This document shows, one piece after another, positions 41,199-60,253 of a DNA stretch of 64,000 nucleotides. The stretch is from Erodium maritimum (Eukaryota; Streptophyta; Magnoliopsida; Geraniales; Geraniaceae): assembly GCA_963921825.1 (NCBI GenBank), contig OY997596.1, positions 11,661,001 through 11,725,000 of the forward strand. The letters run 5' to 3'. Below the pieces are notes generated by a model. That model worked only from the letters and a program-made list of their open reading frames with translations, ran no database searches and had not been told where the DNA came from. The stretch's first letter is position 1. Each line of letters starts with the position of its first letter. The position numbers were made by a program, and so were the translations under genes.

Positions 41199-41629
41199 TA
41201 TATATATATATAGGGACGCTATCAGGTGTGAACCACCTGTAATATGCGAACCTGCAAACTGCATCAGGACCGTCTATCTATCAACAGCGCGTGCGATGTA
41301 CGGCTCAGAGCTAAGCGCGCGAATTGGAACCAATTCTGGGCCACGCGCCTCTTCTCAGGGGCAAAAATGGAATTTACCATTTTTAATTACGCGCGCGGCC
41401 CAGATTCTCTCGCAAAACAGAATAATTATATCTGCAATCTAAGCCTGTTCTTCTGAGATTTTAATTTAGACCAAATTGTCGTAAATAAAAACTGATAAAC
41501 ACAATGCTTGTCGTTTTAAACTGGAAAAAAATTAAAAAATTCTGATCCTCAAACAAATTCTTCTATATATGCAAAAAATAATAGCAGTATAATAAAAAAA
41601 AATTATGTCTGCTTTCTTTTCCTATCATT

Positions 41630-42060
41630 TGACCTCTTTAGTGTAACTGCAAACAATTTGTTCTTTATCCGCAAACGGATATATCAATATCAGCAAACAG
41701 ATTTCATTTTGGTTTAGTTGGTCTAGATTCCATTATATTCTCAAACAATAAAAAATAAAACCTCAAAAAACACCCTATGTACGCTCCTCTTTTGTTCAAC
41801 CTATGTTACGAAGGAAAATGTTTTTCTTGGTATTCTGTCAACTTTCGCAAACTGGGATTCCTCTATTCGCAAACGACATTAACTGTATCCTCATAAAACA
41901 ATTCTGCAAACTAAATATCAAAAACGGATTTGTCCTCTTTAGCTTATCCGCAAACGATTTGTTAGTCATCCGTAGAAGATTATATCGTTATCCGCAAACG
42001 AGAAAAATTGTATCCTCATATGAGATACAGATGAAACAATTAAAGATTAAACATGTTTAG
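41630..42060. repeat. CGCAAAC motif cluster, left part of MULE
   Basis: Eight GCAAAC copies in 430 bp, in contexts such as TTATCCGCAAACG and TATTCGCAAACG, plus TTCTCAAAC variants. Two loose copies of a longer unit (CTCTTTAG...GCAAACGATTTGTT...ATCCGCAAACG) start near 41,633 and 41,935; a third is at 42,575. The segment CTTTTGTTCAACCTATGTTA near 41,790 matches the 3' flank of the gene at 42,180, so this may be the tail of a lost sister gene. Confidence 0.75.
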
Positions 42061-42179
42061 GGACCCACCAATCCAACCAAACCCTACATTTTGCCTATAT
42101 ATACAGAAAAACTGTGCAAACAAAACATAAAGTCAACATCAACTCTTAGCAAACCTCAACTCTCTCCCAATTATAAACC

Positions 42180-42449
42180 ATGGATGCTTGCAACACCGAG
42201 AAGGGTAAGAGCACGAACATCGATCTTCTAACAAAGGAAAAGCTGATGAAGAGGGGAGATGCCATACTCACAAAATACAACATTCTTCTCAATGTTGAGA
42301 AGGTCACAATGAAGCACAAGTACTTAAAGGTGATGCTGTTGGAGGCAAAACTTGATATCGATCTTCTTGTGGTTGAGACCGCCAAAATCGCCGATAACGA
42401 CATGTCATGTGACTGCATAACTATAGCCAAAGACCTCTTGCCAGAGTGA
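42180..42449 (+). CDS. Small lysine-rich accessory protein A (89 aa)
   Basis: Unrecognised. ATG in AACCATGG context, with a TATA-like CCTATATATACAG about 80 bp upstream (42,093). Highly charged and leucine-rich, predicted helical or coiled-coil throughout (KEKLMKRGDAILTKYNILLN, then MLLEAKLDIDLLVVETAK). Same size, orientation and flanking motif landscape as the other small genes in this MULE. The C-terminus may be frameshifted: one nucleotide later, from about 42,435, the +1 frame reads ARVTEVNRAMNDLEEDG, resembling the C-terminal helix of the gene at 53,124-56,372 (ITEVILAVNKAMK). The 3' region shares TCTTTTGTTCAACCTGTGTT with 41,790. Confidence 0.6.
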   Translation: MDACNTEKGKSTNIDLLTKEKLMKRGDAILTKYNILLNVEKVTMKHKYLKVMLLEAKLDIDLLVVETAKIADNDMSCDCITIAKDLLPE

Positions 42450-42574
42450 CAGAAGTTAACAGGGCAATGAACGACCTAGAAGAAGATGGCTTTCTTCTAC
42501 TCTTTTTTTATGGTGCTCTTTTGTTCAACCTGTGTTATGAATGAAAAGATTTCCGATAAATGTCATTTGCTCTA

Positions 42575-42745
42575 TTTAGCTTTTCTGCAAACGATTTATT
42601 CTTCATCCGCAAACTATTATGTCGATATCCGCAAAAGGCTTTCATTTTGGTTTACTTTTTTGCAATCTGGAATGATTATATACGCAAACTGGGGTTCTTG
42701 TATTTGCAAACGAAAACAACTGTATCCACAAACCAAAAATAAGCT
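42575..42745. repeat. CGCAAAC motif cluster
   Basis: Third copy of the longer unit starting CTCTATTTAGC, with TTTCTGCAAACG, CATCCGCAAACT, TATACGCAAACT and TATTTGCAAACG. Confidence 0.75.
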
Positions 42746-42813
42746 TAAACATGATTGATTTCATATGTTGAAATATTTACTTTCCACAAAAAGAAATTAA
42801 AAAACTACAGTAA

Positions 42814-43473
42814 TTAAGCATCATCATCCCAGAAATCTTCTTCATCTTCAACAACTCCTTCCTCAGGATCCTCCCCATATGGGTCTATGTTGTCTTCTTC
42901 TTACTCTTCTCCCTCTTGCTCTTCTTCATCATCCTCTGCATGGACATCTTATTCATCATCATCCAGCCAATCTTCATCAACATAACAACTGTCTTCTTCA
43001 TCATCCTCTGCAGGAGCAAGTGCGGCAGCAGGTGCGGGAGCTGGTGCGACAGCAGGTGCGGGAGCTGGTGCGGGAGCAGGTGCGGTTGGAGGTTCTTCTT
43101 TTTCTGGTTCAAACTCTGCATCTCCTTCCTCCTCATTCTCCTCTTCATCCTCTTCATCTTCTTCCTCACTCTCCTCTTCTTCTTCTTCATCTTCTTCCTC
43201 ATTGTCCTATTCATCTTCATCTTCATCCGGCGGTGATTCATAATCAGGATCCCCCGGTTGAGGAATGTCGTACTCATTGATGAGAGGGTCATCATCATCA
43301 GAGGAGGAGGAGGAGGAGGAAGGATTCAGCCTGCGCCTCTTTGAACAGACGTCGTCGTCGTCATCATCACAACTGAAGATTTGTGATGGTGGAGACTTGC
43401 ATTCGAAAGATTGTCATTTGTCTCCATCACTGTTAGAATACAGAATAGATGGAGACTTGGGAGATGATGACAT
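42814..43473 (-). pseudogene. Acidic nuclear-type protein gene, copy 1
   Basis: Minus-strand reading from an ATG at 43,473 gives SSSPKSPSILYSN, a basic SKRRRLNPSSS patch (nuclear-localisation-like), then long aspartate/glutamate runs, an alternating alanine-proline stretch (EPPTAPAPAPAPAPA) and a final DEEDFWDDDA. Four in-frame stops interrupt it (codon 20, then near 43,213, 42,955 and 42,900), so it is a pseudogene or, less likely, several spliced pieces. It shares the KRRRL-then-acidic layout with the intact acidic gene at 56,809-57,117. It lies head-to-head with the small gene at 44,060 across CACGTG boxes. Acidic proteins of this sort may act as histone or chromatin binders; that is inference. 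Confidence 0.6.
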
Positions 43474-43755
43474 GGCTACCTATCACGATAGGGATGATGA
43501 GAAAATATTTGATTTGTATTTAAATATAAAGATATCAAAAGGGTATCAGAAAATTTGGGGAAATGGAACGACGCCATTAATTTGGGAAGCTTTTCGTTTG
43601 GCGCGAAGAGATTTTTGTAATGATGACAGAAGATATTGAAATGAATGGGCGAAATGAAAGGGCGGTTATAGTCAGATCAAAAATGAAACGACGGTTGCGT
43701 GTATTCAGATCAAAAATTAAAATCATGATTACCTTACTTTTTACTGCATGCTTGA

Positions 43756-43761
43756 CACGTG
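43756..43761. promoter_or_regulatory. CACGTG (G-box) between divergent genes
   Basis: TTGACACGTGTTCT lies between the acidic gene (minus) and small gene B (plus). A second box, GGCACGTGTCCC, lies at 43,943-43,948. The same TTGACACGTGT(T/C)CT text occurs in the equivalent positions at 57,331 and 58,693. Confidence 0.6.
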
Positions 43762-43774
43762 TTCTAACCTGTTG

Positions 43775-43915
43775 AATTTCGGAAATTAATATTCTGAAAA
43801 TACAAAATTCTAGTTTGCGGAAATAATCATTCTGTTTTACGTAAAATGGTTTACAATTTTGCGGAAATGAGAATGATGTTTTGCGAATAATGTACATTCT
43901 ATTTGCAAAAATGTG
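43775..43915. repeat. Motif cluster, reverse orientation (GTTTGCGG)
   Basis: TAGTTTGCGGAAAT, TTTTGCGGAAATG, TTTTGCGAATAA and ATTTGCAAAA: the same motif as elsewhere but on the opposite strand, within the divergent promoter region. Confidence 0.7.
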
Positions 43916-44059
43916 CTTTCATCACATTACGTGCGTGCTTGGCACGTGTCCCACCAAATACTCTAAATCAATACCCCTATAAATATACCCCCTCTATCAC
44001 CGATAAAAAAATTATTCACACTCACATCTCTTCTGAATTATTAGATCATACATACGAAA

Positions 44060-44326
44060 ATGGAATCATCATCAAAAAAACTCAAAATGGAAGTTCTAGA
44101 CAAAGAACATCATGGGTCTGTGCGTGAGCTTCGACATCTGAAGATGTCTATCATCAAGTCCCATTTGATGATAGCACATGACAGGGTGGTCAATCTGATG
44201 GCTGAATTGTATGAAGAAGACATATCCAACGCGGATGAAGAACACAAGGAGTGCGTGAAGAGCATGAGGAAGACACTCGTGTTGTATAAGACTATAATTG
44301 GAAGCATTGTAAAACAGGGCATCTAA
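44060..44326 (+). CDS. Small coiled-coil accessory protein B (88 aa)
   Basis: Unrecognised. The ATG has a good plant context (GAAAATGGA), a TATA-like CCCCTATAAATATAC sits about 85 bp upstream (43,976), and a GGCACGTGTCCC box about 115 bp upstream. The N-terminus carries a lysine patch (SSSKKLK), and the body is a single amphipathic helical region (RELRHLKMSIIKSHLMIAHD, then RVVNLMAELYEEDIS). It is full-length and uninterrupted. The 3' flank (TGATGTCTTTTGTG... TGAATCAATGAAAA) resembles that of genes C and E although the proteins barely align, pointing to a shared origin with fast protein change. DNA or protein binding through a coiled coil is a guess. Confidence 0.7.
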   Translation: MESSSKKLKMEVLDKEHHGSVRELRHLKMSIIKSHLMIAHDRVVNLMAELYEEDISNADEEHKECVKSMRKTLVLYKTIIGSIVKQGI

Positions 44327-44499
44327 GGGATTGCATGAACTTTCCCTTATGTTTTGATGTCTTTTGTGTTGGCTTTTGGTTCTTCTGTTTGATGTCGTTA
44401 TTTTTGTTGTTCTTCCTGACTACAGATGAATCAATGAAAATCTTTTTGTTTAAGTAAATATGCACTAAAATTTACACAATATATTAGACTATACTACCT

Positions 44500-44775
44500 A
44501 GTTTGCAAAATGTATACAATAGTCCCGCAAACAAGATACCTTGTTTTCTCAAACTCGTAAAGCCACTAACGCAAACATCATATTTCGTTCTTCTTTAATA
44601 TTTGAGAAAAGATTTCGTGTGGCTCGAGAGAGATTCCTAGTTTGCAAAATGTACACAATGGTTCCGCAAACAAGATACCTTGTATTCTCAAACTCGTAAA
44701 GTCACAAACGCAAACATCATAATAGTTCTTGTTTAATATTTGAGAAAATATTTCGTGTGGCTCGAGAGAGATTTA
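44500..44775. repeat. Roughly 137-bp tandem duplication carrying CGCAAAC motifs
   Basis: The block TAGTTTGCAAAATGTATACA ... CCCGCAAACAAGATACCTTG ... AACGCAAACATC ... CGTGTGGCTCGAGAGAGATT is present twice (about 44,500-44,635 and 44,638-44,773) with a few differences. Each copy holds three GCAAAC-type motifs and a TTCTCAAAC variant. Confidence 0.9.
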
Positions 44776-45090
44776 CCAAAGATACTGATCAGACACTGGT
44801 GATGTTTGGAAGTGACGCGTGTCAAGACACGATTGTATACTACAAAGAGCCAGTGATTTTTGTTTTGAGGATAATTTTATAATTGTTTGAGAATTTAATA
44901 CATAAGAAATACAAATCGGCAGTCTTGGATAAAACACTTGATATTCTGACCTTGAAAAGTAGCTACCCACTAACCCCATTACTTTGTCCAAGATTACAAT
45001 AATACCCCCTAGGACCATTGCTATAAACACCACTACTGAGTAACTAGTTTCACACATCTTTCACTCTTCAACTCAAAAAAAGCAACAAAA

Positions 45091-45360
45091 ATGGCATCTA
45101 TGAATGCTGAATGGGCTCGCATGAATGCAGAGGATGAAGCCAGGCGTTTGGCTTCCATCCACCATTTATGGAAGCTCAAATTCACAAAGATCCAATACAA
45201 TATGCTGATGATGGATGCGCAGGTGGTCAAGCTCCTAGCTGAAATCGAAACGGACGAAAACCTTACCTGGAACACAGAAGAAAAAGATTCGAAAGAACGC
45301 ATGCTTGAGAAACTGAGGGAGTATCAAGAATTCCTCGGAAAAATAACTGTAGATCCCTAA
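45091..45360 (+). CDS. Small coiled-coil accessory protein C (89 aa)
   Basis: Unrecognised. The ATG is in AAAAATGGC context, with GCTATAAACACC about 70 bp upstream acting as a TATA box. Intact. The N-terminus is MASMNAEWARMNAEDEARRL, then a long helical stretch with heptad-like leucines (LWKLKFTKIQYNMLMMDAQV, then KLLAEIETDEN) and an acidic/basic C-terminal helix (KERMLEKLREYQEFLGKI). The size and the central 'VVKLLAEIE' block parallel 'VVNLMAELYEE' of gene B and 'VVNLIHELEV' of gene E. These are the clearest shared residues of the family. The 3' flank has TCGTCTTTTATGTTTTTGTT as in gene E. Confidence 0.72.
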   Translation: MASMNAEWARMNAEDEARRLASIHHLWKLKFTKIQYNMLMMDAQVVKLLAEIETDENLTWNTEEKDSKERMLEKLREYQEFLGKITVDP

Positions 45361-45464
45361 GCCCCATCCAGAAGAAGATTGGTGGTATCTAGTTTTTCAT
45401 GCATGTCGTCTTTTATGTTTTTGTTTGGTGTTTCACACACCATCTTTTCCTAATGAATCTATGA

Positions 45465-45615
45465 ATATTCTCAAACCATGCTTTCTGTATTCTCAACATG
45501 ACTGACAGTATCCGTAAACTATAAATAAACAATCCGCAAACTAGATATGAAATATCTGCAAACTAGTTCTGAAATATCCGCAAACTAAATATGAAATACG
45601 CAAAGAATCTATTCG
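45465..45615. repeat. CGCAAAC motif cluster
   Basis: TATTCTCAAACC, TATCCGTAAACT, CAATCCGCAAACT, TATCTGCAAACT, TATCCGCAAACT and TACGCAAAG spaced at roughly 25-bp steps around 45,520-45,600. Confidence 0.8.
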
Positions 45616-45930
45616 CTAATAAAATAAAATGTTTCGACTGAACTTTCAAAACTGAATCGGGTTCGTCCATTGCGAATAATATATCGACGGTTCTAGATTA
45701 GCGCACGAATTTACCCCAACTTCCTCTATAAAACCTCGAAATTCAAAAACGAAAAGTACCTAAACAAAAAATCAGAAATCGAATCAAACACAGAGTTAGA
45801 AAGTCTCTCGAAAAAATCTCTACGATTTTCCAAGTATCAACCCTAGATCGGAGTTTTCTCGAAAACATCCAGATCACGGACTAGGTTAAAAAACTGCGAT
45901 TCTTCGAAACTTGATTCCAAAAAAAAAAAA

Positions 45931-46020
45931 CTCAGATCGCACCTGAGATCGCACCAGAGGTCGCACCGACAGATCGCACCGTGAGATCGTCGGAAATCGC
46001 AACAGAGATCGTCGGAGATA
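45931..46020. repeat. GATCGCACC tandem repeat in transposase 5' leader
   Basis: About seven degenerate copies of a roughly 12-bp unit based on AGATCGCACCTG, just upstream of the transposase start codon. It is probably in the 5' untranslated region. Confidence 0.75.
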
Positions 46021-46174
46021 TTGATTGATATCGTCGGATTTTAACACAGCAACCAATACACAAATCGAGATGTCATCTACAATATGTAAGTATAGATCTA
46101 TTCAACAAAATTGATTTTCTTCTAGAATCGCTGCAAATTCTGTTTTTCCGTTGACCAAAACGTCATGATCATGG

Positions 46175-46480
46175 TGGTTTTTTTATCCGTAAACTAGAAT
46201 GCCTAGATACTCAAAACAGTAGTTTTTGTTGTACGATATTTAGCGACATAAAATATTTGTTTCTTCTCAAACAATATATAAAATCTCCTCCATGACAAAC
46301 TCTCAAACTAGATGTGCAGTATCCGCAAACTAACTTGCTTATTTCCGCAAAGGATAAATAATCTACTTTGCCTGTAACTATATACTACTGCCTGTGTATC
46401 AATTTGAGTATATTATAACTATCTGATTCTATGTGTGCTGTATATGCAATCCGAAATTATTACATCCTCAAACTGATCAG
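46175..46480. repeat. CGCAAAC motif cluster in transposase intron 1
   Basis: TTATCCGTAAACT, CTTCTCAAAC, ACTCTCAAACT, GTATCCGCAAACT, ATTTCCGCAAAGG and ATCCTCAAACT lie inside intron 1. The exons next to it have none. Confidence 0.7.
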
Positions 46481-48208
46481 CTGCAGGCACAGACAGTGAC
46501 TGTACTGCAGAATCAGATCTCCAAAACACTGTTCTGTTTTCTGCTGGAGGAACCAGGATATACTTGCCATCCTGCCAGCCTGAACGAACGCCGTTTGTAG
46601 GAAAGGATTTCAAGACACTGAATAAGGCGATAGATTTCTACCAAAATTACGCTAGACTGTCTGGATTCGCTACAAGAAGGTCTACGGAGAAGAAGGATAA
46701 AACAAACAACATAAAGCTAAAGTACATGGTATGCTCCAAACAGGGTGAGATCCCCGAACAAAACAGTCCGCAACTTTCAAAGACTACAAAAAAGAGGAAC
46801 ATATTGCTCACAAGAATTAATTGTGAAGCAATGATAAGGTTCACATTTGTTTCGGAGGAATTAGGATACAAAGTATCAAAATTTGTTGAAGGTCATAACC
46901 ACCCTATGGTTGGAGCGGAGCACAGACATGAGATGCAAGGTAACCGGCACATGGAAGGCAACCATGTTGAGGATATGAACTTTTGCGAGAGATCAGGAAT
47001 AGGTCCCTCAAAGGCACACAGACTAATCAGTGAAACACGCCGAGGCCCCAGCCATGTTGGAGCTTTGAAGCAAGATTTCTTCAACTACCACAGGGACTTG
47101 AAAGCCTATATTGGAGGAAGTGATGTTCAGATAATCCTTGACCAGTTCCGTGACAAGAAGGTAGCCAACAACAAGTTCTACTATGAGTACGATGTTGACA
47201 CAAGCGGAAGCCTCACTAAGTTATTCTGGTGTGATGAAATAGCTATCAAGAATTACGAGCTTTACGGGGATAATGTTTCCTTTGACACAACTTACAGGAC
47301 TAACCAGTAAGTATTACTCGTATTCGCTAATTCATTGAAAAAGAAGTTTTAAACATTATTCTTTATTAACGATTGATGTTTTGTAGGTACTCGATGTCAT
47401 TTTGTCCGTTTACAAGAGTAGACAATTATGACAAATCTGTGACTTTTGGGCTGGGACTGGTAACACATGAGGATATCGAGTCTTTCACTTGGATGTTTAA
47501 CGCTTTTCTGAAAGCGATGAATGGGAAGCAACCAATGTATCTGGTGACAGATCAAGACCCAGCAATGAAAGTTGCAATACCTAAAGTCATGACAGACACT
47601 AAGCACAAACTCTGCATGTGTCACATTATGAATAAGATTCGTCTCAAGGTCAGTCTCTATAAGAAAATCATATACTTTGTATCCACATCTTGTAATTCTT
47701 GTTTACTCAAAACGTTTTATTCTTAATATGGTTCTCATAGTTAACTACTATGCGATGAGTTTATATCTATTCTCAAACTGTTATGTCTGTTTTCTCAATC
47801 TATGAACACAAAATATCCATATGCCACAGTATTGTCAATTACTATTATTTATTTGTTCGAGTTTACAAATCTTACGAAAAATGTTACAGGTGCCTGGAAG
47901 TATAACAAATGATACAAACTTTGAGAAAATGTTGGATTCCATAGTATACAACAACCTTATAGGCCCTGATGAGTTTGATGAAGAGTGGGCTAGCATCATT
48001 GAAGACTTCAATTTACAGGACAACACTTGACTTAATGGCATATTCGATCTGCGACACAGTTGGATCCCAGCATACCATAGGGATTTCCCGATGGGGTTGT
48101 TTATGAGAACAACATCAAGGTCTGAATCACTAAACCGGGCCTATCAACAACTCACAGATCAGTACCTAAACCTTGTTCACTTGATCTGGCGGTGTGGAGT
48201 GGTGATAG

Positions 48209-51200
48209 TGTAATAACCACTCCTGGTCAACGCCAGTCAAACCTGCGAAAAACAGGAAAATTTAAAAAATTTAAGACTGACAGTTAAGTGAACCTAAAAT
48301 GACCCCGAGTGTCATACCATACTTAACTTGACCCCGTTTTTGACCAAAGTGAGGTCCGGGGGACTCAGGGAAACTTTCTGATCAATTTGGGAAATGTTGA
48401 CTTTTCGCTGGAAAAGTCAACCGAGCGACGTTTTGGTCCATTCGAGGACCGTTTTGGATCCAAAAAGCTTATCCGTCGTCGCAGCGGTCTTAGTTGAGCC
48501 GTTTCCTTGTAGCCCGTCAAGTTTCGTAACTTCTTGGGAAAAGTGCCCGTTCGGGGCCCGAAACGTCCGTTTTTCGCGAAACTGATTGGAAAATATCAAG
48601 TAGATATTTTCCAAAAGGTGGGGACCCACCTTGACACTTGTCCATTATGTGGTGGTGTTAGTTTTGGGGGGAAAACTATGTGTGGAGATAGTGTGGCCGG
48701 CCATTTAGGGTAAAAAGAAGACAAAAAAAATAGAATTTTAGTTAGTTGATTAAATTAGAAAAGAAGAGAGGGTTTAGAGAGAGAAGGAGAAGAAGAAGAA
48801 GAGAGGGAAAGCTAGGGTTTGGAAGAGATCTCACCTTTGGATCGTCTCAAGACAAAGAGCAACATCGTTCCCCTCGTTCTCCTCTTGAGTAAGCACCGAA
48901 CCGATTCCCGTTTTGTTAATTTTAAATTGTTAGGGTTTGTGTAAAACTATTAGTTTGAGGTGGTTTTGTTGTTGGGGTAATTATTGGAGACGTTTTAGAG
49001 GTGTTTTGGGGTTTAATTGCACGTTTTCCGGTGACCGGAGGCTCGGGAGGAGCTCCGGCCACCGTGGGTGGTGGCCAGTCGGCCATGGGGTGGCTGGCCG
49101 GAGCTGGTACCAGCCACCACATGGTGGCCGAGCCCCCCCTCAAACCCTAGGGCTCTCGGCCAAGGAGGTTGGGTGGGGCCCACGTGCTCGGGTGCTCGGG
49201 TTTTATCGTTCGGGTGGTTTAAAACGTTCCCCAGACCATTTACACTTAATCGAATCGAAATTTGGAATTAAATTGGAGAAGTTGTAATTTATCGGGTTTA
49301 GAAACTTTAAACTTCATTTAATTGACTCGGAAGTCGGAATTAAATTATGTCAAGTACATTGGGACCCTAAGACCGTAGAAACGAAAACGGGAACTTCCCG
49401 GAAGGGCATTTACTAAACCCGGGCAGATTCGCCATGTCGGGCGAATCGGGCCTTGACGGGTCTCTTATCGACAATGTCGAGTAATTGGGAAGTTTGGGAG
49501 TGATCGACATTTTCGGGGTTAAGTTTGGGCATCGAGTTTAATGATTTTCAGTTTATTCCTGCAAGTTGTTAAGTGCCTTTAAATTGTGTTCTTTTAGATC
49601 GTGCCACGGACCGAGGCAAGGGAAAACTGGGTGAGTGACTGAAATCATCACCAGAGCTCGTTGTTTGGCTTTTGGGAGAACACGCACGAGGTAGGGAAAA
49701 GTAGCCGGATCTCGGCCCTGACTAGGGAAAGTTAACAGTAGAATTGCATGTGACACCGGGGTGTCGTGGGCTGAGTAGGTTTATTTAAATATTAGAAATG
49801 CATGATACGGAATCGTAGCAATTATTAGAAAAGCATGATACGGGATTGTAGCGTTTATTGGAAAGGCATGTGACACTTAGTAGTGTCGTAGGAGCAGAGA
49901 ACTTAGCGATAATTGAATTACTGGAGGCATATGACCATGCCCGGAGGTTGTTTGTGAACTTAGCATTATTAGGAGTACTGGAGGCATATGACCATGCCCG
50001 GAGGTTGATTGAGAAACTGTTGATATTAGGACTGTTGGAGGCTTTGGTTAAGCCGGAGGTTGATTGTTTATTTGGTGTCTTGGGTGGCCTTGAGAGACCG
50101 TGTTTTATTATCGAGTTTTGGGTGGCCTTGAGAGCCCGTATTATTATTGTTGAGTCTTGGGTGGTCATGAGAGCTCGTGTTGTTATTCGTGTTTGGGTGG
50201 CCATGAGAGCCTGTACTTTACTGTTGGTGTTTTAGCTGGCTTACGAGTTAGAGTCTCGGTAAGTTGCAAGCGTGTTTCATTGTTGAGTTTGGGTGGCCAT
50301 GAGTGCCCGTGGGGTTGTTGAACCCGTGTCTTTACCTTTGGTGTTTGGGCGGTCTTGAGAGTCCGTGTACTAAGGTTGGTGTCTTTGGCTGGCCTGAACG
50401 AGTTAGAGTCTCGGGGGGGGGGGGGGGGGGGGTTGCAAGCTTTCTTTAGCTGGCTTACGAGTTAGAGTCTCGGTAAGTTGCAAGCGTGTTTTATGGTTGG
50501 TGTCTTGGGAGGCCGTGAGTGCCTGTGGGGCTGTTGAGTCCGTGTTTTACTGTTGGTGTGTCTTGGGAGGCCGTGAGTGCATGTGAGGCTGTTGAGTCCG
50601 AGTTTTACTATTGGTGTCTTGGTGGCCATGAGTGCCTGTGAGTGTTGATTATGTGTTGTTACTGGTTGTTGAACTTGCTTGTGATTGTGATTGTGATTGT
50701 GATTGTGTTTGTGGTTACTTGAGGTTGGGGGTCAGCTTCATGAAACGGGGGTCCACGATCACACGCGTCTGCATGTTCAGACGAGGTAGGGGGCCCGCCC
50801 GCCAATAAAGGGGTCCTGGCCGCGCGTGTGTGGTTTGGGTTTGTGAGCATACTTTGGCTGGCTTACGAGTTAGAGTCTCGGTAAGTTGCACGCATTCTTT
50901 GGCTGGCTTACGAGTTAGAGTCTCGGTAAGTTGCAGCACTCTTGGGTTGGCCTGACCGGGTTAGAGTCCCGGGAGGGCGTGAGCATTCTTGGCAGCTGGT
51001 TTGTGATCCTTTGTGATCTTGTTTGGTGTGCGATCCTTTGTGATCTTGTTTGGTGTGTGATCCCTTGTGATGCTGTTTGGTGTTGCGTAACTTTCTTTTG
51101 AGTCCTTGGAAGAGGTCGTCAATGGTTATGTCGGGTCTACTTTACGTGTCAGGGTGTCGAGTTGGTCAGGGAAGGCAACAGTGGGTGTATGTTCAGTCAG

Positions 51201-51590
51201 AGTACTTGGGTTGGGGATGGTGTTCCCCGGTGTTGAGTTGTTGTTGGTGTTACTTGCTTTGTCTGCTAATTATGCCGTACTCAGTCTGTTATCCGTGGTG
51301 GTGAGCGAACGCTCACCCCTAGCTGCTTTTCCTACAGGTACCGTTCGCAGGCTGGACTAGGTGAACTTCTGAAGCTTGAAGAGCTTGAAGCGGGTTTCTG
51401 GGTGTTTTGAGTCTAGTGACGTGTACCTCGTTTTTTGTCCACTTGTTGGGACGTGTTTTAAGTTGTAATTATTATTTTGTTGAACTAAACTGGTATTTTA
51501 AAGTGATTTAATGAAAACAAGTTTCAAGTGTTTTTATGTTTTTAAAACGTTCGCGTCCCGAGTTCGGTTTACTGAAATTGGGGCGTGACA
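48209..51590 (+). mobile_element. Solo LTR (Tekay-like), 3.38 kb, inside transposase exon
   Basis: Starts TGTAATAACCACTCCTGG, ends GGGGCGTGACA, with a perfect 5-bp duplication GATAG (48,204-48,208; 51,591-51,595). It has the same family plan as the LTRs of the 9.27-kb element but differs by several percent, and has expanded tandem repeats (GGTGGCC(A/T)TGAGAG units near 50,080-50,220; CTGGCTTACGAGTTAGAGTC units at 50,235, 50,450, 50,860, 50,900). A 20-G run sits at 50,413-50,432. Confidence 0.95.
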
Positions 51591-52390
51591 GATAGAGAAC
51601 CAAAGGAATGAGCATTTCAGTCTTATGATGCACAGCTACAATTCATATCCGGTGATGAAGACAAACACGTGGTTTGAAGCAGATGCTTGGACTGTATACA
51701 CACATACTGTGTTTGCTGACATACAAAAGCATATAATTTACGCTCTCAACCGCTGCAGCTTGTCAGGCATGAATGACACCGTAGATGACACAATTGTCTA
51801 TAAAGTCAGGGATTCGTCGATTATTAAAGATGGTAAGGAATTCAGGGTGACTTGGACGATGAGTACAAACAACTTTGAGTGCAATTGCAACAAGCTTCTA
51901 ACAACGGGCTATATATGTTCTCACATATTCTTTGCGCTGCAAAACACAACGTTAAGGAAGATTCCTAGGACGCTGGTAAACCCGAGATGGTGTAAAGACA
52001 CTAACTTGACAGCTACATTGTCTTCTAATGGTGTTGCACCTGAAGGTCCTAGTCTGAAGGACGATGAAGTTATGTATGCAGTGAAAACCAGGTTTACTGA
52101 AATGATTGGGACAGAAGATGCAGCAATTTCAAGTATTCGAGGATTGTTGGACACTCTAAATCGATACAGAGTGAAGACGGTGGATGACATAGTGAATGAG
52201 AATAGACTCAATAGAACAAGTTTCATAGCATCGGTGACAGGGATCAAATTACCAGAAATAGTCACTGTCCAGCCACCAAATATCACAAACACCAAGGGCT
52301 CTCGCTTGCGATCTGGGAGTAGAATGATCAATAATAAAGAAAAGGCAATCAATGCTAGTAACAAGCGAAAATGGCTATGCGTTACATGCC

Positions 52391-52845
52391 ACACAATGCA
52401 AGACCATGACACAATGACCTGCCCTCAGAAGAAGAAGAAGAAGAAGAAGAAGAAGAAGAAGAAGAAGAAGAAGAAGAAGAAGAAGAAGAAGAAGAAGAAG
52501 AAGAAGAATGATGTATATTTTCAACTGCGGATTTCGTTGTTTCTGTTTGCGAATATAGACAATAAGTTTTGCGAATAAATACAGACTGTTTGAGGATACA
52601 GTTGTTTGAGTTTTCCGAACTAATAAATTTCATTTCTGCACATGTTTTTATTTATATGAAATTTAATATAATATATTGTTCACACACAATGCAAGACCAT
52701 GACACAAGGACCTGCCCCACTGAGTAAGAATAGGAAGAAGAAGAAGAAGTAGACTGATGAAGATTATCAATTGCGGATTTGGTTTTTTCTGTTTGCGGAT
52801 ATAGACAATTGGTTTTGCGGATTTAATATAGACTGTTTCATTAGT
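52391..52845 (+). repeat. Tandem duplication of the transposase 3' end
   Basis: ACACAATGCAAGACCATGAC at about 52,391 recurs at 52,684. Both are followed by an AAG tract and then by AATTGCGGATTT..., GTTTGCG(G/A)ATATAGACAA and GTTTTGCG(G/A)AT. The second copy keeps a much shorter AAG tract with an early stop, perhaps closer to the original tail. It carries reverse-orientation motifs. Confidence 0.85.
52428..52508 (+). repeat. (AAG)n microsatellite in transposase coding end
   Basis: About 27 consecutive AAG units encode poly-lysine after the zinc knuckle. Repeat slippage probably pushed the original stop out of frame, adding NDVYFQLRIS and more before a new stop at 52,578. Confidence 0.9.
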
Positions 52846-53123
52846 ACGAATTTAATATAACAAATTGTTTGCGAATATTTCAAATTTTGTTTACTAAAAA
52901 ATATATAATGATTTGAGAATTCACTACTTTCGTTTTGCGTACAAAAGGGAAGTGAAACGGTTTGTGGTAGACCAATCAAATATTGACAGCGTTGAAACGT
53001 GGGGGAGTATTAATTGCTCCACTAACCCACGATGCCCTACGTGTTCCCCTATATTTACCCAAATACTGTATCCTTCTATACTCATCCCTCAACTCTTAGA
53101 ATACCCAATTTTACTCTGAAAAA

Positions 53124-56100
53124 ATGGCGTCGTCAAGCAGCAGGAAGTGTAATAACCACTTCCAGTCAACGCCAGTCAAACCTGCGAAAAACAGGAAAAT
53201 TTAATATTTTTAAGACAGACACTTAAATTAACCTAAATTGACCCCGAGGGTCAAACCGGACTTAAGTTGACCCCGTTATCGACCAAAGTGAGTTCCGGGG
53301 GACTCAGGGCAACTTTCTGATCAATTTGGGAAATGTTGACTTTTCGCTGGAAAAGTCAACCGAGCGACGTTTTGGTCCATTCGAGGACCGTTTTGGATCC
53401 AAAAAGCTTAGACGTCGTCGCAGCGATCTTAGTTGAGCCGTTTCCTTGTAGCCCGCCAAGTTTCGTAATTTCTTGGAAAAAGTGCCCGTTCGGGGCCCGA
53501 AACGTCCGATTTTCGCGAAATATCTTCTAGATATTGTTACAAAAAGGTGTGGGACCCACCTTGCCACTTGTCAACCAAGTGGTGGTGTTAGGTTTTGGGG
53601 GGAAAATGAGAGGTGAGGGGTACAAGGGGGGTTCGGCTAGCACCATTTTCAAAGGAAAAAAAAGAGAAAAAGAAATAGAAAGAGAGAGTTTGGAGAAGGA
53701 GAAGAAGAGAGAAAAGAGAAGGAGTTGGGCTAGGGTTTGACATCCAACCCTTGGATCGTCTCAAGGCAAGAAGAAAGCGACTTCCCCTCATCCTCTTCTA
53801 CGGTTTGTACTAAACCGATCGTCGTTTTGTTAACTTTTGAAAGTTAGGGTTTGGGTGAAACTATTGGGTTATGGTTGCTTTGAGGTTGGGGAAGCGTTGT
53901 AGACGTTTTAGAGGTGTTTGGAGGTGTGATTGCACGTTTTCCGGTGACCGGAAGCTCGGGAGGAGCTCCGGCCACCGTGGGTGGTGGCCGGCCGGCCATG
54001 GGGTGGCTGGCCGGAGCTGGGACCAGCCACCACCATGGTGGCCGAGCCCCACTTTGAACCTTAGGGCCCACGGCCAAGTGGGTCGGGTGGGGCCCACGTG
54101 CTCGGTTGCTCGGGTTTTGTGTTCGGGTGGTTTAAAACGTTCCCCGGACCATTTATCCTTAACCGAATCGAAATTTGGAATTAAATTGGAAAAGTTGTAA
54201 TTAACGGGTTTTTGAAACTTTAAACGTTAATTAATCGACTCGGAAATCGGAATTCGATTCCGTCAAGTGCATTGGTGTCCTTGAATTATTCTAAGACCGT
54301 AGAAACGGAAACGGGGACTTTTGGAGCCCCGGAAGGCCTTTTACAAAACCCGGGCAGATTCGCCATGTCGGGCGAATCGGGCCTTTACGGGTCCTTTATC
54401 GACAATGTCGAGTAATTGGGAAGTTTGGGAGTGATCGACATTGTCGGGGTTACGTTTGGGCGTTAAGTTTATTGAATTTCGGTTTATTCCTACTAGTTTA
54501 AAAGTGCCTTAAAAACTGTGTTCTTTTAGATCGTGCTGCGGACCGAGGCAAAGGGAGGCTAGGCGAGTGACTGGGATCACGCCGGGGCTTAGTTGAGCAC
54601 TTTTGGAGGACTTACTCGAGGTAGGGAAAAGTAGCCGGATCTCGGCCCTGACTAGGGAAAGTTAACTGTAGAATTGCATGTGACACTGGGGTGTCGTGGG
54701 TTATTTAGGTTATCAAATATTAGAAAGGCATGATACGGGAACGTAGAAATTATTAGAAAAGCATGTGACACTTAGTAGTGTCGTAGGAGCAGTGAACTTA
54801 GCGATATTAGAATTACTGGAGGCATATGACCATGCCCGGAGGTTGTTTGTGTAAATTGAGTTTGGGTGGCCATGAGAGCCCGTGTTATTATTATTGAGTA
54901 TTGGGTGGCCATGAGAGCCCGTGTCATTGTTATTGAGTTTTGGGTGGCCATGAGAGCCCGTGTTATTATTATTGAGTATTGGGTGCCCATGAGAGCCCGT
55001 GCCATTGTTATTGAGTTTTGGGTGGCCATGAGAGCCCGCGTTATTATTGTCGAGTCTTGGGTGGCCATGAGAGCCCGTGTTGTTATTATTGGAGTTTTGG
55101 GTGGAAGTGAGTGCCCGTGGGGTTGTGAACCCGTACTTTACCGTTGGTGGCTTGGTGGCCACGAGGGCCCGTAGGGTTGTTGAACCCGTGTTTTGTTGTT
55201 GGTGTCTTGGTGGCCTTGAGTGCCTGTGGAGTTTGGATTGGTGTTGTTACTGTCTGTTGAACTTTGTTTGTGATTGTGTTTGGTTACTTGATCATGGTGG
55301 AGGTTGTGTGGTGTGGCTAGCCTCCCGACTGGGATCGGGAGAAGCGGAGAGGTTGTGGGCTAGCTCCCCGACTGGGATCGGGGGAAGGAGGCGCGAGTGT
55401 GGCTAACCACCCGACTGGGATCGGGTGAAGCGGAGAGGTTGTGGGTTAGCCTCCCGACTGGGATCGGGAGAAGTTGCGCGATAGGTCGACCGCCTGACTT
55501 GATTGGTATCGGTAAAGGGCGAGAGACAGAGATTGGGTTACTGAGCAGCTGGTATGCAATCCTTTGTGATCTTGTTTGGTGTGCGATCCTTTGTGATCTT
55601 GGTATTGCGTGGTTGTCAGTTGTGTCTTTGGAGGAGGTCGTCAATCGTTGTGTGGGGTCTACATCACGTGTCCGAGTGTAGAGTCGGTTGAGAAAAGTAT
55701 TGGTCGTGTGTGTGTCATTTGAGTCGTTGTTGGTGTCACCGGCTTTGTCTGCTAAGTATGCCGTAGTCAGTCTGTTATCTGTGGTGGTAAGCGATCGCTC
55801 ACCCCTAGCTTCTTTTCCTACAGGTACCGTTCGCAGTCTGGACTAGGTGAGCTTCTGAAGCTTGAAGAGCTTGAAACGGGTTTCTGGGTTATTCAAAGTC
55901 TAGTGACGTGTACCACGTTTTTGTCCAATTGTTAGGACTTATTTTGAGATGTAAATATTATTTTGTTGAACATTTGGTGATTTTAAAGTGAATTATAAAA
56001 AGGGTTTCAAAATGGTTTACTGTTTCCAAACGTTCGCGTCCCGAGTTCGGTTTACTGAAATTGGGGCGTGATAGGAAGCGTAAAAGCTATGAAGATGAAC

Positions 56101-56372
56101 TCGACGAACGCGAAAGGAAGCTGAAGGAGCAGAACAAGAAGGATAGAAAACAAAAGTGTCTCATCAAACACGAGAAGTTTGTGATGAGCTTCAATGCAAT
56201 CAAGTCTAAGCGTTCTGAGATCGAGCTTGAGCTTGAAATTTTGGCCATGGATGTTGGCGACGAGCTGTGCACTGACATGAGCACCGAAGAGGTGCTTGCA
56301 AACACAGCACTCATCAGGAAGATAACCGAAGTGATCTTAGCGGTGAACAAGGCTATGAAACTGGTGGTATAG
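53124..56372 (+). pseudogene. Small coiled-coil accessory protein D (105 aa), split by a solo LTR
   Basis: ATG at 53,124 (AAAAATGGC context; TATA-like CCCCTATATTTACCC about 80 bp upstream). Eight codons (MASSSSRK) precede the LTR insertion at 53,148. The frame resumes after the duplicated GGAAG at 56,079 with RKSYEDELDERERKLKEQNK, so before the insertion the protein was about 105 residues, ending NKAMKLVV at 56,372. Strongly charged, with a basic cluster (RKRKS) and a long predicted coiled-coil (HEKFVMSFNAIKSKRSEIEL). The frame beyond the LTR is otherwise clean, so the gene was probably intact when hit. Unrecognised; same class as genes A, B, C and E. Confidence 0.75.
53148..56073 (+). mobile_element. 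Solo LTR (Tekay-like), 2.93 kb, inside small gene D
   Basis: Starts TGTAATAACCACTTCCAG, ends GGGGCGTGATA (a variant of the usual end), with a perfect 5-bp duplication GGAAG (53,143-53,147; 56,074-56,078). It contains a roughly 50-bp tandem array of GGTGGCCATGAGAGCCCGTG units (54,865-55,080, about seven copies) and CCCGACTGGGATCGGG units (55,325-55,470). Confidence 0.95.
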
Positions 56373-56514
56373 GGGTAGCAAACCCTATTCTCTTCGATTC
56401 CTTTTGTCTGTTCTTAACCAGTTTAAAGTAATTAAAAAAATCTGTTTCCTTAAAATCGTTTATATTTCACTTTCAAGTTATATATAATTCCATGATTTGT
56501 GTTACACGCGAAAC

Positions 56515-56740
56515 AGAATATTAGTATCAGCAAACCATGATCTCTGTATCCGCAAACCAGGATCTCTGTGTCCGCAAACTACAGTCCATAATTATATTCG
56601 CGAAACATAATAATAGTATCCGCAAACTACAAGTCCGTATCCGCAAACACCAAGTAAAGAGAAATAAATTAACATTATAAGCAAACCAGGATCTCTGTAC
56701 CCGCAAACTAGAAGTCCATATTTGAATCCCCCCAAAAAAG
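56515..56740. repeat. CGCAAAC motif cluster, densest run
   Basis: Seven copies in about 200 bp: TATCAGCAAACC, TATCCGCAAACC, GTCCGCAAACT, TATCCGCAAACT, TATCCGCAAACA, AAGCAAACC and CCCGCAAACT, alternating with AGGATCTCTGT and ACAAGTCCGT spacers. Much of it recurs at 58,215-58,390. Confidence 0.85.
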
Positions 56741-56808
56741 AAGTTCTATAGTCACAAAGAGAGATCCCTATATCCTAAAAATGAAATAACTTGTGGCAAA
56801 AGTTACAT

Positions 56809-57117
56809 TCACCAATCTTCACTCCCCCAATCTTCTTCTTCGGCGTCGTCATCTTCTTCTTCTTCTTCATCCTCTTCAACATCACCATTATAACCATAAT
56901 CTTCTTCTTTATCTTCCTCATCATCATCCTCTTCAACATCACCATTATACCCATCATCGTCTTCCTCCCCATTTTCTATCTCCTCCTTTTTCTCATCATC
57001 GGCATCATCACTGATGATAATAGGGCAATCCTTTTCATCACCATGTGAAATCAGTCTTCGTCTCTTTAAAGTTACCTCTTCCTCACCGCTACTACAGTGT
57101 TTTCTATATGGTGACAT
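56809..57117 (-). CDS. Acidic nuclear-type protein, copy 2 (102 aa)
   Basis: Intact minus-strand frame. N-terminus MSPYRKHCSSGEEEVTLKRR with a KRRRL basic patch (nuclear-localisation-like), then over half the protein is Asp/Glu with two DDDGYNGDVEEDDDEED-like repeats, ending DWGSEDW. It lies head-to-head with small gene E (57,623), with a CACGTG box at 57,331 between them. It matches pseudogene copy 1 (42,814-43,473) in plan and copy 3 (58,492) in sequence. Low complexity makes homology unsafe. A histone-mimic or histone-binding role would be a guess. Confidence 0.6.
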   Translation of the reverse strand: MSPYRKHCSSGEEEVTLKRRRLISHGDEKDCPIIISDDADDEKKEEIENGEEDDDGYNGDVEEDDDEEDKEEDYGYNGDVEEDEEEEEDDDAEEEDWGSEDW

Positions 57118-57330
57118 GACTTAATTGAAAAAAGCTCTATGCTAACATGATTTGTAGGGGTAAATATTAATTTAAAATAAACCAAACGACGGTGAAAAGA
57201 CTCACCAACGCATTAAATGCGATAAGATCTTCGTGTATTCGAGGGGGATTTTAGTAATGATGAAATATAACCATGAAAACTTAACCGTCAGATTTTGAAA
57301 TCATACCGTCTGATTTTGGGTAACGATTGA

Positions 57331-57336
57331 CACGTG
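57331..57336. promoter_or_regulatory. CACGTG box between acidic gene and gene E
   Basis: GATTGACACGTGTTCTCTAC sits between the divergent genes, about 215 bp from the acidic ATG and 290 bp from the gene E ATG. It matches boxes at 43,756 and 58,693. Confidence 0.6.
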
Positions 57337-57622
57337 TTCTCTACAAGATCTTATCGTATCACATGTCGATACACGTAAATCAGCATTTAATTTGAGAATT
57401 ATGAGTTACGGATTGCGAAAATAAGATATATGTTTTGCGGAATCCTTATTAGTTAACTAATCTATATATAATTAGAACTCTACTTTAAACAAAATAACGA
57501 TAATGCCACCGCAAGATTTCAACTGTAAATACCCCCACCCCTATACTACTTAACCCTAGAACTCTCCTTCAATTTCAAAACCTCTTCTCCAATAACTTCA
57601 AACCACCAGATCTGCAAAAGAG

Positions 57623-57916
57623 ATGACCCCCAATAGGAAACGCACCAAAGTTGAAGGTAACGTTTGCACCGAAGAAGCTATGGAACATACCATAGAGGAA
57701 CGTTGTAAGAAGATGCGTGAGATGGAGCAAGCCGCTATGGAAACGGCAATGGAGATTCGCAAAGTAAAGTTGGCACTAATCCAATGCCACTTTTTTCTGA
57801 TGGAGGAGAATGTGGTAAACCTTATCCATGAACTGGAAGTGCTTGACATGAGCAACGGGACTGCAAAGCTTAACGAAGATAGAGACAAGATGATGACGAC
57901 ACTGAAAGAGATTTAG
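57623..57916 (+). CDS. Small coiled-coil accessory protein E (97 aa, probably shortened)
   Basis: Unrecognised. MTPNRKRTKVEGNVCTEEAM gives a basic, nuclear-localisation-like start. Then a long charged helix (TIEERCKKMREMEQAAMETA), LIQCHFFLMEENVVNLIHEL (sharing VV-N-L-x-x-E-L with genes B and C) and a C-terminal helix ending TTLKEI. The TAG stop at 57,914 corresponds to CAG in the sister copy F. Beyond it the same frame continues DFFKSISIAEDEGTSDP to a TGA at 57,970, so the ancestral protein was 115 residues. Whether the shorter form works is unknown. Upstream, CACCCCTATACTACTT may serve as TATA box. Confidence 0.68.
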   Translation: MTPNRKRTKVEGNVCTEEAMEHTIEERCKKMREMEQAAMETAMEIRKVKLALIQCHFFLMEENVVNLIHELEVLDMSNGTAKLNEDRDKMMTTLKEI

Positions 57917-58214
57917 GACTTCTTCAAAAGCATATCGATAGCAGAGGACGAAGGCACATCCGACCCATGAAGGGTGTAGTTATATTTTCATTATTATCAT
58001 GTCAATCGTCTTTTGATGTTTTTGTTTTGTCTTTTGAACACTTGTTTTCTCTATGAATGGATGATTAGTATCTACCTATTCTACTGTTAAAGTAATCTAT
58101 ATTAAATTCGCAAAAGACATGTTCTGTATTCTCGAAGACGTATTGTTAATTTCGTAAAAGAGAACATGATTGTTCGCAAAACAAAAATTACTGAAATGCT
58201 AACATGTTTGCACA

Positions 58215-58395
58215 CAACTAGGGCATATCCGCAAACTACAGTCCATAATTAAATTCGCGAAACATAATAACAGTATCCGCAAACAACAAGTACAGAGGAA
58301 TAAATTAACAATATTAGCAAACCAGAATCTCTGTATCCGCAAACTACAAGCCCGTATCCGCAAACACCAAGTAAAGAGAAATAAATTAACAATAT
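58215..58395. repeat. CGCAAAC motif cluster, duplicated copy
   Basis: Second copy of the block at 56,570-56,690: TATCCGCAAACT, TTCGCGAAAC, TATCCGCAAACA, TTAGCAAACC, TATCCGCAAACT, TATCCGCAAACA. Confidence 0.85.
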
Positions 58396-58403
58396 TAGAG
58401 CAA

Positions 58404-58492
58404 TCATCTTCATCACCATGCGAAATCAGCCTTCTTCTCTTTGAAGTTACCTCTTCCTTACCGCTACTACAGTGCTTTCTATATGGTGACAT
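58404..58492 (-). pseudogene. Acidic protein copy 3, N-terminal stub
   Basis: Minus-strand MSPYRKHCSSGKEEVTSKRR then RLISHGDEDDC closely matches the first 30 residues of copy 2. After that the sequence turns into motif-cluster DNA, so the acidic body was deleted. Confidence 0.75.
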
Positions 58493-58983
58493 GACTTAAT
58501 TAAAAAAAGCTCTATATTAATTTAAACTAAACCAAAAGGCGGTGAAAAGACTTACCAACGCATTAAATGCGATAAGATCTTCGTGCATTCAAGGGGGATT
58601 TTAGTAATGATGAAATATAATCGTGAAAACTTAACCGTCAGATTTTGAAATCATATCGATTACATGATACGTCTGATTTTCGTAACGATTGACACGTGTC
58701 CTCTACAATATCTTATAGTATCACATACCGATACACATAAATCAGCATTTCGTTTGAGAATTATGAGTTACGGATTGCGAAAATAAGGTATATGTTTTGC
58801 GGAATCATTATTAGTTAACTAATTTGTCTATAATTAGAACTCTACTTTAAACATAATAACGATAATGCCACCGCAAGAATTCAACTATGAATACCCCCAC
58901 CCCTATACCATTTAACCCTACAACTCTCTTTCAATTTCAAATTCTCTTCTCAAATAACTTCAAACCACCAGTCTGCAAAAGCA

Positions 58984-59331
58984 ATAGCCCCAAACAGGAA
59001 ACGCACCAGAGGGGAAGGAAACGTTTGCACCGCAGAAGCTATGGAACGTACCAGAGAGGAACGTTGCAACAGGGTGCTACAGATGGAGGAAGCCGCTATT
59101 GAGTCGGCAATGCAGTATCGCAAAATAAGGTTGGCACTAATCCAGATCCACTTTTTGCTGATGTAGGAGAAGGTGGTAAGCCTTGCCAATGAACTGCAAG
59201 TGCTTGACATGAGCAACTCGACTGAAAAGCACAAGGAAGATAGGGACAAGATGATGGCGACACTGGAAAAGATTCAGGACTTCTTCAAAACCATTGAGGT
59301 AGAAGTGGACTGGGGCACATCCGACCCATGA
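58984..59331 (+). pseudogene. Small coiled-coil accessory gene F, sister of E
   Basis: Aligns with gene E over its full 116 codons, with no length change. The start codon is ATA instead of ATG (58,984) and one internal TAG (about 59,165, in LLM*EKVV) replaces GAG, so it is a pseudogene. The rest reads APNRKRTRGEGNVCTAEAME, then RTREERCNRVLQMEEAAIES and EKIQDFFKTIEVEVDWGTSDP. It preserves the CAG codon that is TAG in E, so it shows the probable original C-terminus. A TTGACACGTGTCCTC box lies at 58,690. Confidence 0.85.
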
Positions 59332-59757
59332 AGGATGTAGTTATATTTTCCCTATTATCATGTCAATCGTCTTTTGATGTTTTTGTTTTGTCTTTTGAAA
59401 ACTTGGTTTCTCAGTGAATGGATGACTAGTATCTGCTTGTCACTGTGAAAGTCACCTATATTTAATTCGCAAACGACATGTTCTGTATTCTCAAACACGT
59501 ATGGTTATATTCGTTAACCAAGACATGATTATTCTCAAAACAAAAATTACTGAAGTTACTAACATATTAAGGCATATCTTATCATTGGTAAAATCAAACA
59601 GAACTACAGTGTATTCTTCGTACAAGACAATCCAAAACCTCAACCCCAAATATTGCATATCTCAAATAGGTAAACGTTATTCTGCAAACCACGTTACGTA
59701 TATCCGCAGAACATACAATCCTGAAACTCAACCAACATATTGCATACTCTGAAACAA

Positions 59758-60097
59758 GGAAACCCAGTTTCTCAAACCAAGGATTGACTATTCGCAAAAC
59801 AGAAAAATAGTACCGCAAACTAGACACTATATATTCGCAAAACAGTAAACACATAACCTCAACCAACAAAGGAAACTCAATTTCTCAAACCAAGGATTGA
59901 CTATTCGCAAAACAGAAAAATAGTACACGCAAACTAGACACTATATATTCGCAAAACAGAAAACACATAACCTCAACCAACAAAGGAACCCCAGTTTCGC
60001 AAACCAAGGATTGCCTCTTCTCAAAACAGAAAAATAGTACCCGCAAACTAGACACTATACATTCGCAAAACAGAAAACACATAACCTCAACCAACAA
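59758..60097. repeat. Three tandem copies of a roughly 114-bp motif-rich unit
   Basis: Units start at 59,758, 59,871 and 59,985, each GGAA(A/C)(C/T)CCAGTTTC then CAAACCAAGGATTG, TATTCGCAAAACAG, (C)CGCAAACTAGACACTAT and CATAACCTCAACCAACAA. Each unit holds four motif-type sites. Looser motif sites continue on both sides (59,465-60,200). Confidence 0.92.
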
Positions 60098-60253
60098 CTT
60101 GTTTATCCTAAAATACAGCATATTCACAAACAAAAGATCTTATAAATTCTCAAACCAGTACACAGATTATTCTCAAACAATATATCATAAATTCTCAAAC
60201 AAAAAAATTGTCGTTTCTGAAAACAAACACCAGTAATCAAAAAGAGTAATTCA

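Follow-up and report, generated by a model that had tools for sequence, protein, structure and literature searches.

A FAR1-type Mutator-like element (MULE) in the plant Erodium maritimum is saturated with one short word, TATYCGCAAAC, and we propose that this word acts as a family-specific address. The element lies in a 64,000-nucleotide stretch (the window; contig OY997596.1, positions 11,661,001 to 11,725,000, assembly GCA_963921825.1), and positions below are those of the window unless a locus is named. The address reading is well supported by sequence comparison, because the sites are non-coding, stand mostly in same-orientation arrays, are constrained between copies and are replaced by another word in a sister family. 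The first-pass annotation of the window, citing VANC proteins as the known case, had proposed an independently evolved motif-address system with a different motif; the address part has held up well, an independent origin is tentative, and the binder and its effect on silencing are steps that we infer.

Sites were counted as TATYCGCAAAC with at most one mismatch unless stated otherwise. The window holds 49 of them, against 2.18 ± 1.60 in 100 shuffles, the largest of which reached 7. With coding intervals taken from our own annotation and dinucleotide shuffles as the control, 47 sites were assigned to non-coding MULE DNA (7,657 bp; 0.30 expected), none to MULE coding DNA (5,656 bp; 0.08 expected), none to nested long terminal repeat (LTR) DNA (7,770 bp; 0.16 expected) and 2 to the flanks (42,917 bp; 1.25 expected). 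This bears out the earlier impression that the motif is in excess in the MULE, that its sites lie between genes and in introns and are scarce in exons, and that the nested LTRs and flanks go without them. GCAAAC, first put at about 45 occurrences on the two strands, is found 53 times in 12,779 bp of MULE DNA, where the remainder of the window predicts 3.04, and CGCAAA 54 times against 2.0; no other hexamers of MULE DNA are as strongly enriched over that remainder. The companion variants that had been claimed fared unevenly. CGCAAAA is enriched in MULE DNA (18 against 0.76 expected), as is TTCTCAAA, a longer form of CTCAAAC (22 against 1.27), whereas CTCAAAC itself (37 in the window) also occurs outside the MULE and CCGTAAAC occurs just twice in the window.

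Across the genome (763 Mb in 40 contigs, including C1, C2 and C9), exact TATYCGCAAAC occurs 4,455 times (2,401 + 2,054), against 192 (109 + 83) for the pattern written backwards. Pairs of the word 21-23 bp apart number 302 against none in the control, and those listed are 21 or 22 bp apart. The shuffles, the backwards pattern and the compartment counts together rule out chance or base composition as the source of the word. The genome search that the first-pass annotation had suggested recovered further copies and short relatives with the word. We compared the window copy (W), which forms one copy together with locus L027, with copy A (C1:22.95-22.97 Mb) and copy B (C1:21.34-21.37 Mb); identity to A over aligned non-coding DNA is 96.5% for B and 93.8% for the window copy.

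Across 57 sites in 11 copies aligned one-to-one to reference A, the motif is 96.2% identical and the adjacent 11-bp flanks 88.7%, against 92.4% for CpG-matched non-coding words and 93.4% for all other non-coding words of the same alignment. L021, with 0 bases aligned under the alignment filter, contributes nothing to these counts or to the ratios that follow. The least conserved motif column is the Y position (90.4%), and the CpG is retained in 144 of 159 comparisons within the motif, against 793 of 998 in other non-coding DNA. For the substitution ratios, sites were taken either from A or from the other copy, as exact matches or allowing one mismatch, within deletion-free blocks and with insertions relative to A left untracked. 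The motif/flank ratios were 0.21 (95% interval 0.10-0.35), 0.38 (0.23-0.58), 0.41 (0.18-0.75) and 0.59 (0.40-0.80). A pool of eight scrambled words had a ratio of 0.99 (98 site-copy pairs, at up to 2 mismatches, where the motif sets allowed 0 or 1). The contrast between motif and flank looks like the footprint that a bound site would be expected to leave, and it disfavours the explanation that the arrays are function-free tandem repeats raised by slippage and segment duplication. Tandem units, a 114-bp higher-order repeat and duplicated segments inside the element do fit such an origin. However, the word is kept while its spacers diverge, the exons are free of it, and relatives that cannot be aligned have it at the same spacing, and we give this explanation hardly any credence.

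The sites of the window copy are distributed among the genes of the element, including several small open reading frames (ORFs; cc1 to cc6), as follows.

41666..41999, plus strand: cluster 1, in the left terminal non-coding region
42604..42733, plus strand: cluster 2
43813..43889, minus strand: cluster 3, upstream of cc2
44683..44693, plus strand: TATTCTCAAAC site between cc2 and cc3
45466..45585, plus strand: cluster 4, in 22-bp steps
46184..46330, plus strand: motif sites ahead of the first recognised transposase exon, in a probable 5' intron
47768..47778, plus strand: TATTCTCAAAC site inside a transposase intron
52545..52877, minus strand: cluster 5, between transposase and cc4
56525..56708, plus strand: cluster 6, in 22/21-bp steps
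58226..58365, plus strand: cluster 7, on a duplicate of the cluster 6 segment
59464..60178, plus strand: cluster 8, containing a 114-bp tandem repeat

In copy A, the 10,201 bp annotated as non-coding contain 57 sites and the 9,038 bp annotated as coding contain 7; of the latter, 4 belong to arrays that an open frame runs through, 1 lies in cc1 and 2 are at interval edges. Each of the 14 one-kilobase bins of this copy that have 300 or more non-coding bases contains 2-8 sites, and the 8 bins with fewer non-coding bases hold 1 site in total. The sites are therefore not only subterminal, and a subterminal-only placement is ruled out. The transposase strand holds 57 of the 64 sites. Over the main part of copy A, distances between sites on one strand (up to 2 mismatches) peak at 22 bp (41 pairs), 44 bp (18), 21 bp (10) and 109 bp (10). 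Segment duplication alone is likewise ruled out as the source of the count: once 40-mers that match each other at 80% or more are dropped, the window copy still has 42 of its 48 sites and copy A 63 of 77.

An array stands near the 5' or 3' side of each gene, and cc2 and cc4 each have a minus-strand cluster upstream. Such placement would suit ordinary enhancer sites, through which a host or element transcription factor activates the genes of the element and no silencing is countered. Yet the arrays are retained in relatives that have no genes, and the joint change of word and spacing between sister families, described below, would be unexpected for a host factor. We consider an enhancer role improbable.

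Five loci (L018, L020, L022, L023 and L026) carry the word with no similarity to the element or with short stretches of it (78-98 bp). The short unit at L018:4414-5268 has ends of the same type; no gene is visible in it, and it is packed with TATTCGCAAAC and TATTCTCAAAC, mostly in 22-bp steps. L026 codes for cc2- and cc3-like proteins that are 42% and 44% identical. At L019 and L024, left-end DNA is joined directly to right-end DNA and sites are kept at both ends; these loci are internally deleted derivatives of the element. A further short unit, at L026:7096-7400, has related ends (GGGAGACAATTACGTGCGAACC) and several TTTTCTCAAACC-like words in which the CpG of the main word is missing, perhaps a third sub-form. 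L038, tried as a further family, reads as a decayed window-family copy with the window's word.

The main rival explanation for the arrays is that they are transposition sites, to which an accessory protein similar to TNPA would bind in order to assemble the ends, and which the short relatives would need in order to move. In the available portion of PMC2613891, the subterminal repeats recognised by TNPA serve excision in cis, and deletion derivatives depend on them. The gene-less unit at L018, packed with arrays, would fit this explanation, as would the sites found within about 1 kb of both termini of copy A. However, sites fill introns and intergenic DNA over about 20 kb and are not restricted to the ends. 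TnpA and MURA are themselves tied to methylation loss in the accessible text of PMC10398659, so the transposition and anti-silencing readings overlap. On balance, we regard a TNPA-like role as unlikely.

A sister family has a related small ORF, a different word and a different spacing. A genome-wide search with the cc3-like protein of L026 gave 150 scored matches out of 832 candidates, among them a clade (F3) that is about 48% identical over the full query and has many open frames. Among the genome matches listed, TATYCGCAAAC is not near the F3 copies at C1:16.39 and 23.94 Mb. In L037, the 900-bp stretch on the 3' side of one F3 ORF aligns over about 112 bp to the 3' region of the window family's cc3; the alignment stops where the first site of the window family begins, and a (C/G)ACCACTARAAG array in 23-bp steps follows. 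ACCACTARAAG pairs at 22-24 bp number 162 genome-wide against 0 for the reversed word, and those listed are 23 bp apart; statements on spacing hold within the ranges searched, 21-23 bp for the window family and 22-24 bp for F3. Judged by the pairs listed within 20 kb, the 52 cc3 matches on C1 and C2 comprise 17 with the window-type array only, 15 with the F3 array only, none with both and 20 with neither (the window-family pairs listed reach C2:77.39 Mb). A random site lies near a window-type pair in 1.0% and near an F3 pair in 0.45% of draws.

The remaining features of the window copy, including its terminal inverted repeat (TIR) and the ratios of nonsynonymous to synonymous substitution (dN/dS) of its ORFs, are listed here.

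41213..41275, plus strand: left TIR, in a TA run; termini common to W, B and A, and the far end taken from A, B and L027
42180..42449, plus strand: small ORF cc1, 89 codons before the stop; related to cc4 and cc5 of copy A; no Pfam match
42949..43413, minus strand: acidic ORF 1, which includes a KRRRL stretch; a stop interrupts it in the window copy
44060..44326, plus strand: small ORF cc2; dN/dS 0.59 (3 copies)
45091..45360, plus strand: small ORF cc3, through which sister families were found; dN/dS 0.30 (5 copies)
46477..52512, plus strand: FAR1/MULE transposase region, exons near 46477-47310, 47370-47654, 47890-48208 and 51591-52512 (limits taken from open frames); broken by a nested insertion
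48209..51590, no strand assigned: nested LTR-like insertion 1, TG...CA, flanked by GATAG; no motif site; breaks the transposase
53124..56372, plus strand: small ORF cc4, split by the insertion at 53148-56072; dN/dS 0.63 (8 copies)
53148-56072: nested LTR-like insertion 2, TG...CA, flanked by GGAAG; splits cc4
56809..57120, minus strand: acidic ORF 2, with a KRRRL stretch; no Pfam match above cut-off
57623..57916, plus strand: small ORF cc6; dN/dS 0.79 (4 copies)
58987..59331, plus strand: broken second copy of cc6
60254..60832, minus strand: end part of the Ulp1-like gene, whose remainder lies past the insertion at 60833 and outside the window

The small ORFs, about 80-110 codons each and placed around the transposase, form two weakly related groups, cc1/cc4/cc5 and cc2/cc3/cc6. 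Their dN/dS values run from 0.30 to 0.79, all below 1. A single long helix was predicted for cc6 by AlphaFold2 (predicted local distance difference test 75.8, predicted template modelling score 0.37), a model judged too weak for a fold search. Pfam found nothing above cut-off in the small, acidic and Ulp1-like ORFs that were scanned. The minus-strand gene of copy A contains, by eye, HFTLLCID...DCGVYAMWHME, which we take to hold the Ulp1-like catalytic residues; Pfam gave no Ulp1 match on its separate exon pieces, and a protein search with the N-terminal part of the Ulp1-like gene returned no homologue.

We propose that the repeated word would serve in cis in a system through which the element recognises its own copies. 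One of the element's own proteins probably binds TATYCGCAAAC arrays, with units about two DNA turns apart, in the non-coding parts of its own family and in short relatives with the same arrays. The most likely output would be protection of these copies from host silencing, the part that VANC plays for VANDAL elements. The sister family has ACCACTARAAG at 23 bp and a diverged set of small proteins. The candidate binders, in order of priority, would be the small cc proteins, the Ulp1-like protein and the FAR1 transposase. For the combination of binding by an element protein and a VANC-like, anti-silencing output, we lean only slightly towards acceptance.

Several observations weigh against this proposal. 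Seven of the first eight genome loci with the word (L001-L007) are lone sites with no element similarity within 3 kb. The 20 of 52 cc3 matches with neither array include all five at 65-70% identity to the L026 query; these 20 loci may have decayed or may use other words. Homogenisation between copies may contribute to the conservation of the word. The dN/dS values of cc1 (0.74) and cc6 are barely below 1, from 3 and 4 copies, respectively. Pfam scans detected no recognised DNA-binding domain in the small ORFs, and a protein search with cc5 of copy A found no homologue. Nor did Pfam find DUF1985 or DUF287 in the scanned ORFs, which entered as 24 queries from the element, taken exon by exon, and do not amount to every ORF.

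The element nevertheless seems to resemble the set of VANC targets. The available portion of PMC5735166, on Arabidopsis VANDAL elements, describes VANC21 targets as a 9-base word (YAGTATTAY) with two sub-forms, in high-density same-orientation arrays in intron, intergenic and terminal non-coding DNA; methylation loss caused by VANC21 spreads over the element, and VANC6 uses different words, AGTTGTCC and AGTTGTAC. RNA-directed DNA methylation acts on the same non-coding regions, according to the accessible text of PMC10398659. As far as these partial sources go, the likeness lies in same-orientation, often tandem arrays of a short word in introns, intergenic DNA and terminal non-coding DNA, in the two sub-forms, and in the different words of related families (the window family and F3). 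VANDAL elements differ from ours in having degenerate TIRs and a VANDAL-type transposase, whereas many small paralogous ORFs accompany the transposase here. Because its transposase is FAR1-type, its TIRs are recognisable although imperfect (about 60 bp) and the scanned ORFs lack DUF1985 and DUF287, we would not file the element as a VANDAL. A 2022 study by Sasaki and colleagues reportedly deals with VANC diversification in eudicots and the helical periodicity of the motifs.

It is tempting to go further and suppose that FAR1-type MULEs, which stand apart from the VANDAL group, have a second self-address system of independent origin. Its readers would be small helical proteins with no relation to VANC, each specific for the word of one family at a constant helical spacing and each shielding that family, along with its gene-less relatives, from silencing; word, spacing and protein would switch together between sister families in one genome. 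We offer this as a tentative possibility that is more doubtful than the proposal above. Common descent with VANC systems may apply instead, and is kept in play because a Ulp1-like gene is present and some VANC genes carry Ulp1 in the available part of a review (PMC13317346). If an independent system does exist, sequence-specific anti-silencing would not be confined to VANDAL elements but would extend to another MULE group with other proteins and words. At least two word/protein pairs in many copies within one genome would make specificity switching directly testable, and could yield new pairs for locus-specific epigenome editing in plants. A literature search that covered few subscription papers found no report of such arrays in FAR1-type MULEs.

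Other transposon groups share single features with the element. En/Spm with its TNPA (a CACTA element; PMC2613891, in the part available) likewise has element-specific short repeats that are kept in gene-less relatives, with words that differ between sister families; our element is not a CACTA, and its repeats run through its whole length, not just the subterminal regions. FAR1/FRS- or Jittery-type MULEs share the FAR1 and MULE domains of the transposase, but the accessible text of PMC6446971 lists one ORF for this plant sub-group, where our element has additional small and acidic ORFs, a Ulp1-like gene and arrays. Ulp1-carrying MULEs (Kaonashi/KIU, and those of grapevine, melon and rice; available portions of PMC13317346 and PMC2528002) share a Ulp1-like gene on the strand opposite the transposase, but here the domain is without Pfam confirmation, and the transposase type and TIRs are unlike those of the non-TIR Arabidopsis group.

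The assignment of the element to FAR1-type MULEs draws on the predicted transposase, in which Pfam recognised PF03101 (FAR1, E 3.8e-16) and PF10551 (MULE, E 1.3e-18). Its 37 database relatives are 26-47% identical, many of them named FAR1-RELATED SEQUENCE 5-like. A CNCN...CSH pattern (SWIM-like) was read by eye and gave no Pfam match, and many homologues carry PF04434. Genome-wide, 951 candidates for the last exon yielded 103 scored copies, which match the query at 90-100% identity; dN/dS of the transposase between copies is 0.46 (9 copies).

The left end of the element, at 41213, begins GGGACGCTATCAGGTG and is where the first-pass annotation had placed it. The right end had been put at 60250, which did not stand: the element runs on to an LTR insertion at 60833 and then past the window, to about L027:5250 (C9:11,730,250), some 5.2 kb beyond it, for a length of about 28 kb including nested insertions. 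Both ends adjoin TA runs, which would hide any target site duplication (8-11 bp in FAR1/Jittery-type MULEs). The TIRs (at 41213 and at about L027:5250) repeat TGCGAAC, which resembles CGCAAAC and differs from the word. At the far end of copy B (L013/L014, about B 10500-10620), a second terminus of the same kind stands back to back across a TA run, so family members appear to insert side by side. Low-complexity coding repeats, GCN-rich and AGA, occur at 43009-43085 in an acidic ORF and at 52427-52508 at the end of the transposase.

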